Assembly: GCA_031276435.1 (NCBI GenBank)
Contig: JAISNB010000037.1
Coordinates: forward strand, 1 to 34,554
DNA: 34,554 nt
Source: Burkholderiaceae bacterium
GTDB lineage: Bacteria > Pseudomonadota > Gammaproteobacteria > Burkholderiales > Burkholderiaceae_C
Direction of reading: 5' to 3'
The notes beneath the pieces were generated by a model that worked only from the letters and a program-made list of their open reading frames with translations, did not search any database and was not told the DNA's origin. How positions within the stretch are numbered: the stretch's first letter is position 1; each line of letters starts with the position of its first letter. The position numbers and the translations under genes were made by a program. Below, in pieces: positions 1 to 8,127 of this stretch.

Positions 1-111
1 CTCGTGCGCTACGAAAAGCTCGAACGCAGTTTCCTCGCCCTCAACCACCTCGCGGCGGCCATCATCGCCTTCCGCAAGGTGCCGTTGACCGTTAATATTA
101 TTTACGGATAG
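1..111 (+). mobile_element. C-terminal end of an IS5-family-like DDE transposase (truncated by window start)
   Basis: Frame 1 reads LVRYEKLERSFLALNHLAAAIIAFRKVPLTVNIIYG* ; the RYEKLxxxFLAxxHLAAAII pattern resembles IS5-type transposase C-termini. IS end not identified. Confidence 0.7.
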
Positions 112-238
112 ATTCTAAGCACAACCAATACGCGCCGCGAACAATTTCCTGCCCATGCCATGGCGCTTGCTTTGGCGATGTGGCGCGCCAGGCAGCCTCG
201 GTTCTTGTCTTTTCTTGCCCGCTATGCGCGGGGATGCC

Positions 239-454
239 GCAGGGCGTGGTGGGGCCTGCGCTCATGCGGCTCGATAGCGTTGCAGACAGGGCAGTCCCTG
301 TGGCACGCGCGGCAGGCGGCAACGCGCACCGAGACTCTTCGCTGCCGTGCCGGGCGGGCGCTTGGGCAGCGTTGGGGGGTGTTGTTGTCTCATTGCACCA
401 ACAGTTTCAAGTTTTGCACGTGTGCAGGCATTTTTGCCAAAATTTGAGAACAAA
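239..454 (+). repeat. Copy 1 of a diverged non-coding repeat located upstream of the YtkA-peroxidase-DoxX operon
   Basis: Shares with 3749-3961, in the same order: gcagacagggcag, caggcggcaa, 22-nt cgctgccgtgccgggcgggcgc, ttgtctcattg, gagaacaaa. Confidence 0.75.
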
Positions 455-526
455 CCCATAAAATACTACTACTAAATCATTACTATTTTGTCTTTCCGGG
501 CGACCAAATACAGTATATGGTTGTAA

Positions 527-603
527 CTATACAAATTTGGAATGCCTGCTGCTCCAGGCGCGGAGCAATCCCAGCAGGCTGCATGACACGAAAATTTGTA
601 TAG
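527..603. promoter_or_regulatory. Nested inverted repeat in the leader/promoter region of the first peroxidase operon
   Basis: CTATACAAATTT (527-538) / AAATTTGTATAG (592-603) perfect 12-bp arms; inner GCCTGCTG (544-551) / CAGCAGGC (572-579); innermost GCTCC (551-555) / GGAGC (562-566). Confidence 0.65.
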
Positions 604-632
604 AATCGCAGCTTTTCCCACCTTTGAGCCGC

Positions 633-1061
633 ATGGTGAAGTTTTCTCTGAAGCACAGGCTGGACTTTTTGACTGGACGCTTCCTCTCTCTTGCCACGCT
701 GTCGGGGGCTGTTGTGTTGCTCATGTGCTGTGCGTTCTCTGCTGCTGCGCGCGCGGCTTCGAACGAAGTCGTGGTGAAGCCCGGTGTCTTGCCAGTACCG
801 ATAACTATCAACAAATTCTACGAATTTCCACTGGTGGTTAGCGATGCGAACGGCGCTGGCGTACCAGGGCTGGGTCTGAAAATTCGCGGGCGCATGCCCG
901 AGCACGCTCATGGGCTGCCCACAGAGCCTCAAATCGTTGATGAAGGCGAAGGACGCTACCGGGTCAAAGGATTGAGCTTCAATATGCCAGGCCAATGGGT
1001 GATAGAAATTCTGCGTGACGGTGATTTGCTGTTTCGACAGAAATTCATGGTGCGGTTTTGA
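633..1061 (+). CDS. YtkA/FixH-like secreted or membrane-anchored protein
   Basis: Signal-peptide-like N-terminus MVKFSLKHRLDFLTGRFLSLATLSGAVVLLMCCAFSAAARA; motif GRMPEHAHGLPTEPQ...GRYRVKGLSFNMPGQWVIEI typical of YtkA-like domains. Start chosen downstream of ORF-track start at 537. Confidence 0.7.
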   Translation: MVKFSLKHRLDFLTGRFLSLATLSGAVVLLMCCAFSAAARAASNEVVVKPGVLPVPITINKFYEFPLVVSDANGAGVPGLGLKIRGRMPEHAHGLPTEPQIVDEGEGRYRVKGLSFNMPGQWVIEILRDGDLLFRQKFMVRF

Positions 1062-1069
1062 AGTTCATC

Positions 1070-2323
1070 ATGTCCAGGGTTTTGCTGGCCTCCTGCGGAT
1101 TGGTTTTTACTCTGCTGCTCATCCTGTTTCTGATGTTCCACCACACCCATGCCGGGAGTATGCATTCGATGTGGTCAGACGACGATATCGCCGTTTTACG
1201 GAGTTTGCGTTTTTCCACACAAGACGTTGCCGACAAGAATCGCTCCAATGAACTGCTTTTCCGGGAGGATGCCATCGAGTTGGGCAGGCGCTTATTTCAC
1301 GATACTGGCCTGAGCGGTTCTGGCAAAGTGGCCTGCGCGTCCTGCCATCGGCCGGAAGATGGTTATCAGGACACGCAGTCCATTACCTACCAGCTCGATC
1401 CGGACGCAATGCATCGCGCGCCCGGTTTGCTGGGAGTCGCTTTACAGGACTGGTTTTTCTGGGATGGTCGCGCGGACTCGCTCTGGAGTCAGGCGCTGGT
1501 TGTTATCGAAAGCCCGATGGAGATGGCGTCGAGCCGTTTGTACGCGGTGCGGCATCTGTGCACGCAATATGGGGGAAACTTTTCCGAGCTGCTACAAAGT
1601 TGCCGCGGGGTCGACCTGTCCGCCGTGCCCGTGCACGCCTCGCCGCGAGTGGCTGATGAGAACTGGAGAAATCTTGGCGCCGAACAGCGGGATAAGATCA
1701 ACAAACTGTTTGTCGTTATCGGGAAAAGTATTGCCGCTTTCGAGGCCGGGCTGATGCCACCGATCTCCCGCTTTGATCTTTATGTCGATGCGCTTGTCGA
1801 AGGCAATCATGCCAGGGCCGCTACGCTCCTGGATGAAAAAGAATTGGCTGGATTAAAGCTGTTTCTTAATACGCAGATCACCGGCTGCATCAATTGTCAC
1901 AACGGCCCGATGTTCTCCAGTTCGGGTTTTTTTGCCGTCGCAACCGACACGCCGGGAAAGCCGGAGCATGACCGCCAGCGTGGCGTTGGCATTTTGCTTG
2001 ACAGCGAATTCAACTGCCTGAAATGGGACGAGGGCGATTCCGGGGGCTGTCCCAAACTCCAGTACATCAAGAACGATCCCGCAGAGACGACGGGCGCCTA
2101 TAAGGTGCCCTCGCTGCGCAATCTTCGTCATGCGCCCGCTTTCATGCATGACGGTAGTCTTCCGAATCTCGGAGCCGTCATCGAACACTACCGGACTCCC
2201 GCAATTTTTCCCTTGCGGCATATTGATATTCGTCCAGCGGCAATGCTGCCGCATCAGCGCGAGCAATTGCTCGCTTTTTTAAATGTACTTGGAACAGGCG
2301 TTTCTCGCCAGGAACCTCAATGA
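1070..2323 (+). CDS. Di-heme cytochrome c peroxidase / MauG superfamily protein
   Basis: Two heme motifs CASCH and CINCH; YKVPSLRNLRHAPAFMHDGSLPNLGAVIEHY signature; N-terminal membrane/signal segment. Alternative TTG start at 1058 overlaps the upstream stop. Confidence 0.88.
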   Translation: MSRVLLASCGLVFTLLLILFLMFHHTHAGSMHSMWSDDDIAVLRSLRFSTQDVADKNRSNELLFREDAIELGRRLFHDTGLSGSGKVACASCHRPEDGYQDTQSITYQLDPDAMHRAPGLLGVALQDWFFWDGRADSLWSQALVVIESPMEMASSRLYAVRHLCTQYGGNFSELLQSCRGVDLSAVPVHASPRVADENWRNLGAEQRDKINKLFVVIGKSIAAFEAGLMPPISRFDLYVDALVEGNHARAATLLDEKELAGLKLFLNTQITGCINCHNGPMFSSSGFFAVATDTPGKPEHDRQRGVGILLDSEFNCLKWDEGDSGGCPKLQYIKNDPAETTGAYKVPSLRNLRHAPAFMHDGSLPNLGAVIEHYRTPAIFPLRHIDIRPAAMLPHQREQLLAFLNVLGTGVSRQEPQ

Positions 2324-3303
2324 AAAATAAATTTTTCCTGTTGCCCTTGTTGTCCTTTTTTCATCTGGCAGCGCAAGCGCATGTGCAATGGTTTGTTACG
2401 ACCGAGCAGATGAAGAATGTTTCCCTGCCGCTGGACATGGTGAGCCTGTGGCTGACTGTGGGCGTGCTGGCCTGCACACTGGTCGCGGTGCTGTTGACCC
2501 GGCATGCCAGCATCTCTTCGATCACGGAGCAACTGCTTTGCCGCATTCCCGTGTTTGACCACCGGCTGTATCTGGTGTACTTCATGACCTTGATTGCTGT
2601 TTTTCTTGTCATGATCCTGCTCCAGGGCGGATTTCTCGCGCCCAACCTGATTTTGCCGCAATCCCTGTTGTCACTCGGCGTTTTGCTGCAAGCGGCCATC
2701 GTTGTCTGTGCGACATTCAGCACGTCGCTGGCAGGGATTGTGATGCTGATTACGACGCTGTTCGTTGTGTTCGTTTTTCCATCAATATCGATCAATTACG
2801 TGTTCGAGCTTGGCGCCATCGGCATTTTCATGGTGTTGAACGGGCCAGTCATCAGTACTGTGGATCAATGGATGCTGCCTGCGTGCAAGTCGGAACGGTT
2901 TTGGAAGCTTTCTGTCCGGATTCTCCGCATGGGTATCGGTTTGCAACTGGTCGTACTCGCCCTCACGGAAAAATTGATATATCCGGGTTTGGGGCTTGTT
3001 TTTATCGAGATGTATCCGTTTTATAACTTTTTCATCCTCCTCGGACTGGATCAGGTAAGCAATTTGCATTTCATTTATTTCATTGGTATTTCCGAATTGG
3101 TGTTGGGATTGATGTTGATGTTTGGCATTGCCAGCCGCCTGGTGCTGGTGGCGTTGGCCGCAGCCTTTACGACAACCGCCATTATCCACGGCGTGCATGA
3201 AATTCTGGGTCACCTGCCGATTTTCGCCGCCGCCGTTATTTTGTTGCTGGAATGCGTCAATCAAGCCAGACCGCGAGGCCAGTCCCGCAAGAAAGGTGTT
3301 TGA
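2320..3303 (+). CDS. DoxX-like multi-pass membrane protein
   Basis: Signal peptide ending AQA|HVQWF, several hydrophobic segments, C-terminal ISELVLGLMLMFGIASRLVLVALAAAF DoxX-like region; ATGA overlap with upstream peroxidase. Confidence 0.65.
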   Translation: MKNKFFLLPLLSFFHLAAQAHVQWFVTTEQMKNVSLPLDMVSLWLTVGVLACTLVAVLLTRHASISSITEQLLCRIPVFDHRLYLVYFMTLIAVFLVMILLQGGFLAPNLILPQSLLSLGVLLQAAIVVCATFSTSLAGIVMLITTLFVVFVFPSISINYVFELGAIGIFMVLNGPVISTVDQWMLPACKSERFWKLSVRILRMGIGLQLVVLALTEKLIYPGLGLVFIEMYPFYNFFILLGLDQVSNLHFIYFIGISELVLGLMLMFGIASRLVLVALAAAFTTTAIIHGVHEILGHLPIFAAAVILLLECVNQARPRGQSRKKGV

Positions 3304-3554
3304 GGATGTTTCCTGAAAAATCAATGAGATGCCACGGAGCCGGACGGAGCGGGAATATGCAGGGTTTTGCTAACGGCATCTTTTTGTGAATGACAAGTTA
3401 GTTCTTGGTACTGCGTTCAAAGGGATGCGCCGCGCGGCAAACCGGGGCCATGCACACAGGGCATTGTTGCGGGCGGGAACGAACCGCCGCCCAGAATAAG
3501 TTGTTCCAATCTTCCGGGCGCGGCGTTCTCTTCTCTTAACCCGGAAGCCTGCTC

Positions 3555-3780
3555 ATGAAGAAAAAGTGCTGCCCGCGCAATGCAGGCGCTGGCAGCCGCT
3601 TGTGCATGCCGCCAGCGATGGCGCTGAGCGCGCAGGATTGCAGCGCGAACGAACCCACCCAGTCCCCCGCACTGGATAAGGAAGGTCGGCCCCCGGCAGA
3701 AATGACTTCAGACGACAGCAAGTAAGTGGTCTTGCGCCTTATATGTCTCAGGGCATGGTGGTGGAGTAGCGCGTGTGATC
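3555..3780 (+). pseudogene. Decayed 5' fragment of a di-heme peroxidase gene, paralogous to the gene at 4089
   Basis: Nucleotide-level similarity by eye: 3505-3765 vs about 4050-4345 (e.g. ggcgctggcagccgcttgtgcatgccgccagcg / ggcgctggccgtcgcttgcatgttgccagcg; gcgcaggattgcagcgcgaacga / gcgcaagatcgcagcgcaagcga; gtcttgcgcctt / gtcttgcgcctc). CASCH codons replaced by tgc gcc tta tat gtc (CALYV). Confidence 0.65.
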
Positions 3781-3961
3781 GATCACGGGCCGATGGCGCC
3801 GCGCGCGCAGACAGGGCAGAGACCCTGGGGGCGCAGGCAGGCGGCAATGCTACCGAGTCTCGCGCTGCCGTGCCGGGCGGGCGCCTGGCAGCGTTGAGCG
3901 GGATTTTTGTCTCATTGTGACAACATTTTTGCGCGTGGGCAGGCCAAAAAATGAGAACAAA
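3749..3961 (+). repeat. Copy 2 of the diverged non-coding repeat, upstream of the second peroxidase gene
   Basis: Same ordered blocks as 239-454; includes 22-nt identity cgctgccgtgccgggcgggcgc at 3863-3884 vs 340-361. Confidence 0.75.
3907..3923. promoter_or_regulatory. Candidate regulator-binding palindrome TTGTCTCATTGTGACAA
   Basis: Arms TTGTCTCA / TGTGACAA match 7 of 8 positions; the left half (ttgtctcattg) is conserved in copy 1 (385-395). Confidence 0.5.
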
Positions 3962-4088
3962 GTCACACTTTTGGACTATTTTTTTGTTGTCATGCGCTTC
4001 AAAGTGACCAACTCCCGTATAGTGAAGGCTACTTCAAAGTAGCTGCCGTCCAAGCCTTGGGCGCGCGGCGTTTTCATGACCGACCTGT

Positions 4089-5132
4089 ATGAAGCACTAT
4101 CCAAAAAATGTTGTCCGCAGAGCGCGGACACTGCTGGCGCTGGCCGTCGCTTGCATGTTGCCAGCGGCGGCGTTGTACGCGCAAGATCGCAGCGCAAGCG
4201 AGCCGATCAAGCCCCTGCCGCCCAAACCCGCGCTGGATGCCAAGAAGGTCGAGCTGGGCAGGCTGTTGTTCAATGACGCGCGGTTTTCCGATGACGGGTC
4301 GGTGTCTTGCGCCTCGTGCCACAAGGTCGAGGCGGGCGGGGCCGATGCGGGGCGCAAGCTCTCTGTTGGGGTGCGCAAGCAAAGCGGAACCATCAACTCG
4401 CCATCGGTGCTCACGGCGGCCTACAACTTTCGCCAGTTCTGGGATGGTCGCGCCGACACGCTGGAAAACCAGATTCCGCATGTGCTGAGCAATCCGCGCG
4501 AGTTTGGCAGCACCTGGCCCGCGGTGGTGGCGCGCCTGAGCGCCGATCCCAAGCTGGTTGGCGCCGTCAAGGAGGTGTACGGCACAACCGCGCTTTCGCA
4601 GCGCAATCTGAGCGATGCCATCGCCACGTATGAACGCTCGCTGCCGGAGCCGTCGCGTTTCGATCAATACCTGCGTGGCGACAGCCAGGCCATTACCGAG
4701 GATGAGCGGCAAGGCTACGTCAAGTTCAAGTCGTATGGTTGCATTGCCTGCCACCAGGGCGTGAACGTGGGCGGCAACATGTATCAGCGCTTGGGCGTGC
4801 TGGGCGATTACTTCAACGACCGCGGCGGCCCGCTGACCACGGACGACATGGGGCGCTTCAACGTGACCCGGCGCGAATCGGACCGGCACGTCTTCAAAGT
4901 GCCCAGTCTGCGCAACGTGGCGCTGACGCCGCCTTATTTCCACGATGGCTCGGCCACCACTTTGGAGCAGGCCGTGCAGGCCATGTTCAAGTACCAGTTG
5001 GGCCGCAGCGCGCCGCCGCAGGATGCCGCCCAGATCGTGCAGTTTCTGCGCGCGCTGACGGCGCAATCGATTGAAAAGAACCAGCGCGGCGCTACCACCG
5101 CCGCCACGGCACAAGCGAGCCAGAAGCCATGA
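4089..5132 (+). CDS. Di-heme cytochrome c peroxidase
   Basis: Heme motifs CASCH and CIACH, NVGGNMYQRLG, HVFKVPSLRNVALTPPYFHDGSATTLEQAVQAM; signal peptide. Confidence 0.92.
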   Translation: MKHYPKNVVRRARTLLALAVACMLPAAALYAQDRSASEPIKPLPPKPALDAKKVELGRLLFNDARFSDDGSVSCASCHKVEAGGADAGRKLSVGVRKQSGTINSPSVLTAAYNFRQFWDGRADTLENQIPHVLSNPREFGSTWPAVVARLSADPKLVGAVKEVYGTTALSQRNLSDAIATYERSLPEPSRFDQYLRGDSQAITEDERQGYVKFKSYGCIACHQGVNVGGNMYQRLGVLGDYFNDRGGPLTTDDMGRFNVTRRESDRHVFKVPSLRNVALTPPYFHDGSATTLEQAVQAMFKYQLGRSAPPQDAAQIVQFLRALTAQSIEKNQRGATTAATAQASQKP

Positions 5133-6967
5133 AGCCCAGAACCCGAACCTTTGTCTCCTGGCTGATTGGCTTGCTGCTGGCCGCCCTGGCCTTTGGTGTG
5201 CTGGGCTTTCTGGTGGTCAAAAGCCGCAGCTACGACTCGCAACTGCGCACCGATCTGGTCGCCAACCTGCGCGATTTGCGCGAGATGAACGCGCGGCTGG
5301 ACGTGGATGTGCTGCGCTCGCGCAATGGCCTGAACAACGACTACGACCCGTTGGGCGAAAACTTGCAGGCCATCCAGAGCGTCAATGAGCGCCTGATGGC
5401 GCAAGCGGCCAACGCCCGCATGGATGCCACAGCCCTCAAGAATCTGGCCGATGTGTTCCAGCAAAAGCTCAATGTCATCGACGACTTCAAGGCCACCAAC
5501 GCCATTTTGCTGAACTCGCTGCGCTACCTGCCCACGGCCATGGAAGATGTGGAAAAAAATCCGCAGGCCGACGCCGACTTGCGCCTGCGCGTCAACCGGG
5601 TGGTGGCCGACGTTTTTCGTGCCAGCCTGCTGAGCGATTCGATCAACGCGCAGCAGGTGCGCGCCCAGTTGCGGCAGGTCATCGAGAACGTGGCCATCAC
5701 GGCGGGGCCTGAATCGGAGCTTGCGCAAATCGCGCAGGGCTTTCAGCTTCACGCGCTCACCATCTTGCGCCAGCGCGAAACCGAAGTGACCCTGTTCGAG
5801 CAATTGCAGGCCATTCCGATGCGCAGGCAGCTCGATGCCGCGCAGTCATCGCTGGAAGCGCAGTTCGAGCTACGGTCCGAAGGCAGCGAGATGTACCGCG
5901 ACTTCCTGGCCATCTACTCGGCCGTCCTGTTGCTGGGGCTGTTCTACATCGCCTGGCGTCTGGCGGCCAGTTACCGCCTGCTGGCGCGTGCCAATCGCCA
6001 GCTTGGCGAGGCCAACGCGCATCTGGAGCAGCGCGTGGAAGAGCGCACGCACGACCTCAACCGCGCCATGGAAGACCTCAAGGCATCCGAGGCCGACCTG
6101 ATCCAGTCAGAAAAAATGGCCTCGCTGGGGCAAATGGTGGCGGGCGTCGCGCACGAGATCAATACGCCGCTGGGCTACGTGCGTGGTACCGTGGAATTCA
6201 TGGATGGCGTCATGGGCGGCAACATCCACCCGTATTGCGAGCAAACGCGCCAGCTTCTGCAAGCCATGCGCAAGCCCGACGCCACCGAGGACGAAATCCA
6301 TCAAAACTACGAAACGGCGCTGGCGAGCATGGAAAACATGGACGCGCAGCTCACGAGCGATTTGCAAACCGCGCTGAAAAACAGCCTGCACGGGCTGGAC
6401 CAGATCAGCGAGATCGTGCTCAACCTCAAGAACTTCAGCCGCCTCGACCGCAGCCGCAACACCTTGTACAAGGTAGAAGACGGCATCGACAGCGCCTTGC
6501 TGCTGGCCAAGCAGCAGGTCAAGCACCGCAAAATCGTCAAGATGTACGGCAACACGGTGCCCATCCTGTGTGCGCCCTCGCAAATCAACCAGGTCATGCT
6601 CAACCTCATCACCAACGCAGTGCAGGCCACCACCGAAGAAAACGGCACCATCACCATCACCACGACCCACAAGAATGCCGACACCATTCAGATCAAAGTG
6701 GCCGACAATGGCAAGGGCATACCGGAAGATCAGCTTGGGAAAATCTTCGATCCCTTCTACACCACCAAGGCCATTGGCCAGGGAACCGGGCTTGGGCTGT
6801 CCATCGTGTACAAAATCATCGAACAGCACAAGGGCAAGATCGAAGTCTTTTCCAGGCCCGGGGTTGGAACGCTGTTTTCCATAGAGCTTCCCGTCGGCAG
6901 CGCGGACAAAAACGAACCCGGGGCGGAAACCACCACAAGCGGTGAGTTGCTGCTCCTGGATGATTGA
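5129..6967 (+). CDS. Membrane sensor histidine kinase, probable DAHL-type N-terminal sensor domain
   Basis: Two TM segments flanking an all-alpha extracytoplasmic region; H-box VAGVAHEINTPLGYV; HATPase motifs NLITNAVQA, DNGKGIP, GTGLGLSIV; ATGA overlap with upstream peroxidase. Confidence 0.9.
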   Translation: MKPRTRTFVSWLIGLLLAALAFGVLGFLVVKSRSYDSQLRTDLVANLRDLREMNARLDVDVLRSRNGLNNDYDPLGENLQAIQSVNERLMAQAANARMDATALKNLADVFQQKLNVIDDFKATNAILLNSLRYLPTAMEDVEKNPQADADLRLRVNRVVADVFRASLLSDSINAQQVRAQLRQVIENVAITAGPESELAQIAQGFQLHALTILRQRETEVTLFEQLQAIPMRRQLDAAQSSLEAQFELRSEGSEMYRDFLAIYSAVLLLGLFYIAWRLAASYRLLARANRQLGEANAHLEQRVEERTHDLNRAMEDLKASEADLIQSEKMASLGQMVAGVAHEINTPLGYVRGTVEFMDGVMGGNIHPYCEQTRQLLQAMRKPDATEDEIHQNYETALASMENMDAQLTSDLQTALKNSLHGLDQISEIVLNLKNFSRLDRSRNTLYKVEDGIDSALLLAKQQVKHRKIVKMYGNTVPILCAPSQINQVMLNLITNAVQATTEENGTITITTTHKNADTIQIKVADNGKGIPEDQLGKIFDPFYTTKAIGQGTGLGLSIVYKIIEQHKGKIEVFSRPGVGTLFSIELPVGSADKNEPGAETTTSGELLLLDD

Positions 6968-6999
6968 GACAAACCTGAAAACCAGGGAGAAAACCACAA

Positions 7000-8127
7000 T
7001 TGGAACACCCACAAACAGCCAACCCGGCCCGGACGGCCAGCGGTTTCAAAACCGATCGCGCCGCCGCAAGCAAGGCCACCGTACTGCTGCTCGACGACGA
7101 GGAGCGCGTCGTCGAAACGCTGCGCATGATCTTGCGCCCGTTCTACAACGTGCTGACCGCAACCGAAGGCCAGGCCGCGCTGCAATTGCTTTTGGCCCAC
7201 AAGGTGCAGGTCATCATCAGCGACCAGCGCATGCCCAACATGACTGGCGTGGAATTCTTGCGCAAGGCGCGCCAGATTTCCCCGGCCAGCGTGCGCATCC
7301 TGCTGACGGGCTTCTCCGATCTCAAGGCCATCATCGACTCGGTCAACGAGGGCGAAGTCTTTCGCTTTCTCAACAAACCCTGGGGCAATGCCGAACTGCT
7401 TTCCGTGGTGACCGAAGCCGTCGAAGTGGCGCGCCAGATCGACACCGTTGCCCCGGACGTCAAACAGTCCCTGGCCGAAAACGCGCAAGTCCAAATTCCG
7501 GAAGCCGCCTCTGAAGCGGCCCACGCGGAGCAGCCAGCGGCCACCGCTGCTGCTGCGGCGGCGCGACATCACCACCTGCCGCCAGTCACCAAGGGCGTGG
7601 TGCTGGTCAAAACACCCAACCGCACCTTGTACGACCAGATCATCCTGACGCTGCCGCAAGGCGTGGCCTGCCTGCACGCCGCCACACTGGACGAGGCGCT
7701 GGCCGTGCTGGAGCGCCACCCCGTCAACGTACTGGTGGCGCACTTCGACAAAGTGGCCGACGCGCAAAACGAGGCGCTGGCCTTCAAACTGCTCAAGCGC
7801 GACTTTCCGGCGCTCATCAGCATTGCCCTGATCCGCAACACCGACGCCAACGACCTGATCTCCATGATCAACCAGGCGCGCGTATTCCGCTGCGCCACCC
7901 TGCCTTGCAAGGCGTCGCTGGTCAGTTTCTTCATCGTCAGCGCCCTGCGCCAGCACCAGACCCACCTGGCCGCGCCGCAATTGCTGCAAACGCAGCGCGC
8001 CGAACGCTTCGACGTGCCCGCGCAGGCGACCAGCGACGGTCGCTCTGACCCGGCCACCACGGGGCTGCTCTCGCGCATCGGCTCCATTTGCAAGCGATGG
8101 CTGGGCGCGCCAGCGGCCAGTAACTGA
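7000..8127 (+). CDS. Response regulator with canonical N-terminal receiver and a degenerate second receiver-like domain
   Basis: VLLLDDEERVVETL, IISDQRMPNMTG, LLTGFSDLK, RFLNKPWGN; second half KGVVLVKTPNRTLYDQI...VLVAHFDKV...CATLPCK lacks the acidic pocket; no recognised DNA-binding domain. TTG start preceded by agggaga. Confidence 0.82.
   Translation: MEHPQTANPARTASGFKTDRAAASKATVLLLDDEERVVETLRMILRPFYNVLTATEGQAALQLLLAHKVQVIISDQRMPNMTGVEFLRKARQISPASVRILLTGFSDLKAIIDSVNEGEVFRFLNKPWGNAELLSVVTEAVEVARQIDTVAPDVKQSLAENAQVQIPEAASEAAHAEQPAATAAAAAARHHHLPPVTKGVVLVKTPNRTLYDQIILTLPQGVACLHAATLDEALAVLERHPVNVLVAHFDKVADAQNEALAFKLLKRDFPALISIALIRNTDANDLISMINQARVFRCATLPCKASLVSFFIVSALRQHQTHLAAPQLLQTQRAERFDVPAQATSDGRSDPATTGLLSRIGSICKRWLGAPAASN

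Follow-up and report, generated by a model that had tools for sequence, protein, structure and literature searches.

Two related leaders before di-haem protein operons as the probable remains of one split tandem duplication in a Burkholderiaceae bacterium

Overview

The two leaders that precede a YtkA-MauG operon and a di-haem peroxidase gene in a Burkholderiaceae bacterium are probably the remains of a single tandem duplication of ~575 bp, the first copy of which is divided by a foreign-looking operon. The rearrangement is an ordinary one and gives no evidence for a conserved regulatory module; a pair of upstream regions that resemble each other can mimic such a module and yet be what is left of one local duplication. 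The window, meaning the whole stretch of DNA analyzed, is the 34,554-nt contig JAISNB010000037.1 (assembly GCA_031276435.1), and all coordinates refer to it and to its plus strand unless stated. A sequence-only reading had singled out two stretches, copy 1 (239-454) and copy 2 (3749-3961), which lie within duplication copies A and B, respectively. Unit 1 consists of the YtkA, MauG and membrane-protein genes (633-3303), and unit 2 of the peroxidase, kinase and response regulator genes (4089-8127); the features of the locus are collected in Table 1. Counts given for the bacterium's own genome rest on a search of an assembly that is 84.5% complete.

Table 1. Features of the duplicated locus and of related sites elsewhere in the genome
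Feature	Position	Strand	Basis or remark
Right end of an insertion sequence, taken to be IS5-like	1-116	+	Contig starts inside it; two or more further copies, likewise at contig ends (C90, C106)
Left half (leader) of duplication copy A	213-559	+	Alignment with 3730-4055; right edge fuzzy, ~520-560
Best-conserved leader core, copy A	282-454	+	Core alignment
Nested inverted repeat CTATACAAATTT/AAATTTGTATAG, inner GCCTGCTG/CAGCAGGC	527-603	+	Unit 1 leader only
YtkA-like protein, first gene of unit 1	633-1061	+	PF13115, E 1e-7
MauG-type di-haem protein, unit 1	1070-2323	+	PF03150, E 1.8e-30
Membrane-protein-like ORF, unit 1	2320-3303	+	No Pfam or NCBIfam match
Right half of copy A: 5' untranslated stretch and first ~60 peroxidase codons, frameshifted pseudogene	3505-3729	+	Alignment with 4049-4261
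Duplication junction, TCTTGCGCCT	3730-3739	+	Start of copy B
Duplication copy B: leader and start of intact peroxidase gene	3730-4304	+	575 nt, against 572 nt for the copy A halves
Best-conserved leader core, copy B	3807-3961	+	Core alignment
Candidate CRP-like site TGAGA-ACAAAG-TCACA	3952-3967	+	Intact in copy B only
Putative -10-like TATAGT, copy B	4018-4023	+	Chosen by eye; TATATG at 514-519 is the copy A equivalent
Intact di-haem cytochrome c peroxidase-type gene	4089-5132	+	PF03150, E 1e-50
Partner microhomology in peroxidase gene (first CxxCH haem-motif codons)	4305-4314	+	Same word as junction
DAHL-domain histidine kinase, unit 2	5129-6967	+	PF19443, PF00512, PF02518
Response regulator, unit 2	7000-8127	+	PF00072 receiver; C-terminal half without recognized output or DNA-binding domain
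Other AAATGAGAANNAAGTCACACTTTTG sites, intergenic	G000:C4:1542, C171:4999, C122:3804, C121:780(-), C154:1350(-)

Homology of the Leaders

Local alignment of 101-640 with 3701-4100 pairs the two leader cores at a score of 134, whereas 1000 pairs of dinucleotide-preserving shuffles gave a mean of 20.5 (sd 2.4) and a maximum of 34; of the 152 ungapped core columns, 133 are identical, and gaps occupy 24 further columns. The sequence-only reading is thus borne out in placing two related copies at these positions in the same orientation, and the similarity is significant well beyond short blocks. The identical blocks that it listed are all present (340-361 = 3863-3884, 22 nt; ttgtctcattg; gagaacaaa), and the distances to the first genes, which it had put at ~180 and ~130 nt, measure 178 nt (gene 633) and 127 nt (gene 4089). 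A shared element does exist, however the length of ~210 bp assigned to it was too short, as with milder gap costs the homology widens to 213-559 versus 3730-4055 (score 216); aligned alone, the left flank has a score reached in 8 of 500 shuffles and the right flank one reached in 2. The copies had also been described as lacking a convincing ORF, and indeed the reading frames of the two are out of register and most are broken by stops, for which reasons a coding remnant was rejected as the nature of the leader.

Pseudogene and Duplication Junction

The earlier reading missed a decayed peroxidase 5' end that lies just before copy 2. At a score of 133 (null mean 51, sd 8, maximum 75), positions 3505-3699 align with 4049-4261, where the intact peroxidase gene has its 5' untranslated stretch and opening codons; carried on from the pseudogene end to the junction, the alignment of 3663-3739 with 4233-4313 has a score of 20 (null maximum 9). 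The pseudogene is frameshifted where the signal peptide would be encoded, and a stop closes it ahead of copy 2. It is not preceded by a second leader, since 3304-3504 versus 3730-4048 scores 39 with a null maximum of 52. A point against the duplication reading is that the opening 500 bases of unit 1 reach a borderline 60 when aligned with the peroxidase start (null maximum 65). In the coordinates of copy B, copy 1 spans 3730-4055 and the pseudogene spans 4049 to ~4304; because these homologies are to successive parts of that segment, the two together tile one copy of 3730-4304. The halves are complementary, in order and head-to-tail, their combined length (213-559 plus 3505-3729) being 572 nt against the 575 nt of copy B, and ungapped identity along the segment is 77-88%, a similar level of substitution throughout.

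In the whole 34.5-kb window the junction word TCTTGCGCCT has just two sites, one at 3730, the start of copy B, and one at 4305 in the peroxidase gene, the place at which copy A would be expected to end and a microhomology-mediated duplication to be joined; copy A opens with TCTTGC at 213. An 11-nt word common to the junction and the peroxidase gene was found in 2 of 2000 shuffles, which corresponds to P ~0.001 for a test chosen post hoc. A short repeat at both borders together with a hybrid junction is the form expected of a tandem duplication at a short direct repeat.

Proposed Origin of the Locus

On the proposed history, ~575 bp comprising the leader and the first ~70 peroxidase codons would have been duplicated in tandem via the short repeat TCTTGCGCC, which is located at the leader start and where the peroxidase gene encodes its first haem motif. 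The working gene would have been retained in the downstream copy, and a leader with a dead gene start in the upstream one; an operon of lower GC content (YtkA, MauG and membrane protein) would then have come to sit inside the upstream copy, between 213-559 and 3505-3729. Placing duplication before insertion is a matter of parsimony. The location of the operon between leader and dead gene start puts it behind the putative duplicated peroxidase promoter region, and unit 1 may therefore be transcribed from the captured leader; co-regulation of the two units by descent is possible in such an arrangement.

In experiments with E. coli and Bacillus subtilis, tandem duplications form at microhomologies of ~9 bp, and promoter capture activates horizontally transferred genes (PMC11111574). 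The present locus resembles those cases in its short border repeat, its hybrid junction and a putative promoter region before an acquired gene; unlike them it is an old, diverged natural case, with a third-party operon dividing the first copy. It would offer a readable natural example, with its scar preserved, of an acquired operon coming to sit behind a resident promoter; if the captured leader is active, it would also show in nature how a regulon can grow by duplication and not by new binding sites.

The GC content of the unit 1 genes (54, 55 and 51% for genes 633, 1070 and 2320) compares with ~60-65% for the downstream genes. YtkA likewise precedes a MauG-type gene in one relative (G025), while another (G017) has the peroxidase-DAHL kinase-response regulator order without unit 1; units 1 and 2 are thus separate modules joined here. 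Against the proposed history, the borders of the split (520-560 / 3495-3505) are not sharp, and they show neither a clean target duplication nor a mobile-element end. The nested inverted repeat before unit 1 has perfect arms of 12 bp (527-538/592-603) and inner arms of 8 bp, with a folding z of -2.1; as it is present in one copy in the genome, a multi-copy MITE was rejected.

Conservation of the Leader Core

The sequence-only reading had seen conserved blocks within diverged sequence, and proposed that the ~210-bp element is a common cis-regulatory module that co-regulates both units. Such a module, under selection and bound by one regulator, may coexist with the duplication, the copy having been kept for its function; on balance we regard it as rather unlikely. 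It would account for the position of both copies upstream of di-haem protein operons in the same orientation, and it draws on the gaps in the alignment: if each gap column is scored as a change, conservation of the core exceeds that of the flanks (P = 0.001 and 2e-5) and, by a small margin, that of the pseudogene (gap columns, P = 0.017; gap openings, P = 0.09). By substitutions, however, the core is no better kept than the pseudogene (P = 0.28), the ungapped identities being 81% for the left flank, 88% for the core, 77% for the right flank and 83% for the pseudogene, with those of the flanks inflated by gap-tolerant alignment. Taken together, these values make any excess of core conservation over dead sequence weak at best, and gene conversion could also raise core identity. 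The blocks themselves do not stand out from even divergence: substitutions are evenly spread, and shuffling the columns of the core yields a run of at least 22 in 66% of cases (longest-run P = 0.66), and the 22-nt identity thus gives no ground for assuming blocks under selection. That the sharing of the element reflects selection for a common module is likewise not supported; the copies would be parts of a tandem duplication that also took the start of the peroxidase gene.

The related proposal that selection retained the duplicated leader, which by a natural promoter capture would place the acquired YtkA-MauG operon under the resident peroxidase/two-component regulation and leave a two-unit regulon with a pseudogene scar, is tentative and appears doubtful.

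Distribution Across Genomes

Outside the window no convincing homologue of the element was found in 150 relatives; a plasmid-borne element was rejected, there being no plasmid match. A close peroxidase (E <= 1e-95) is encoded in 11 of 401 family genomes, the bacterium's own included, and the other ten were combined with two congeners (G017 and G001) to give 12 relatives for comparison of leaders. The element does not recur upstream of such peroxidase genes: it is absent before all 12 orthologues, whose leaders score within the shuffle range against both window leaders (leader 1 versus leader 2 scores 134), although the orthologues are only 52-59% identical as proteins, a divergence at which leaders would be expected to lose their similarity in any case. 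The module is therefore not widely conserved, yet at this divergence a recent function is compatible with the result. A further point against the proposed history is that no genome turned up with an unsplit duplication, or with a related leader before an unduplicated locus; the orthologous operons of the 12 relatives are too distant for leader comparison. An exact 21-mer of the leader is found in records from Kocuria, Nonomuraea and Cupriavidus; these three matches are taken as chance, and the records show no meaningful similarity to leader 2 beyond the word itself (best scores 43-44 over 8 kb).

Candidate Promoter and Operator Signals

The shared leader probably contains promoter sequence. 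The -10-like TATAGT and TATATG occupy matching positions of the leader alignment, at a distance of ~70 and 119 nt from the respective start codons. A consensus scan returned no sigma-70 promoter in either leader, which speaks against the proposed history, and no consensus -35; it did not pick up TATAGT either. The absent -35 would fit an activator-dependent promoter, with the -10 elements chosen by eye.

Copy 2 contains two palindromes, TTGTC-N7-GACAA and TGAGA-N6-TCACA, which could serve a selected module as operators; the second arms of both are broken in copy 1, which argues against that module. Of the CRP-like site formed by the latter palindrome, copy 1 keeps the left half, the right half being lost or absent. 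With the CRP-like site in copy 2 only and the inverted repeat in the unit 1 leader only, the leaders share ancestry and perhaps a basal promoter, and their best candidate operators differ. The corresponding 25-nt motif, AAATGAGAANNAAGTCACACTTTTG, has five other sites in the genome and its reversed control pattern none; a repeat family was rejected, the six places in all being best read as a CRP-like site. The sites are not independent, since at least four of the five others precede apparently paralogous genes. Most AAATGAGAANNAAGTCACACTTTTG sites precede genes for secreted proteins of one paralogous family, whose C-terminus resembles a sorting signal.

Unit 2 resembles CcpA/MauG-type peroxidases under Crp/Fnr-family control in that a di-haem peroxidase gene has a CRP-like palindrome upstream (in copy 2 only) and in that the genome encodes at least six proteins with cNMP-binding domains; it differs in that the candidate site is not intact before the MauG unit, and in the adjoining two-component system without a recognized DNA-binding output domain. 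For the latter reason the response regulator does not suggest itself as the protein that controls the leaders.

RNA and Mobile-Element Explanations

A structured leader RNA, or a small RNA, is a very improbable reading of the core. The stem CGCUGCCGUGCC/GGCGC..GGCAGCG is the same in both copies, and a two-sequence consensus contains two covarying pairs; however, Rfam gave no match at the gathering score and no credible weak match, the folding energies of the leaders equal those of shuffles (z -0.3 to +0.8), and the likely -10 is downstream of the core, which would leave the core outside the transcript. An RNA family or riboswitch was rejected accordingly.

The reading of the two stretches as a dispersed repeat or a mobile element can be set aside almost entirely: an IS5-like end does lie ~95 bp upstream of copy 1, however the two stretches are the only copies in the 84.5%-complete genome, share no terminal repeats, and are part of a homology that continues into a gene start. 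The element at the contig start is presumed to be IS5-like by its sequence and not by a profile match.

A second di-haem peroxidase gene is found elsewhere in the genome (L087, G000:C102, 473-1498, minus strand; 45% identical), and the gene after it reads like a Fur-family regulator.
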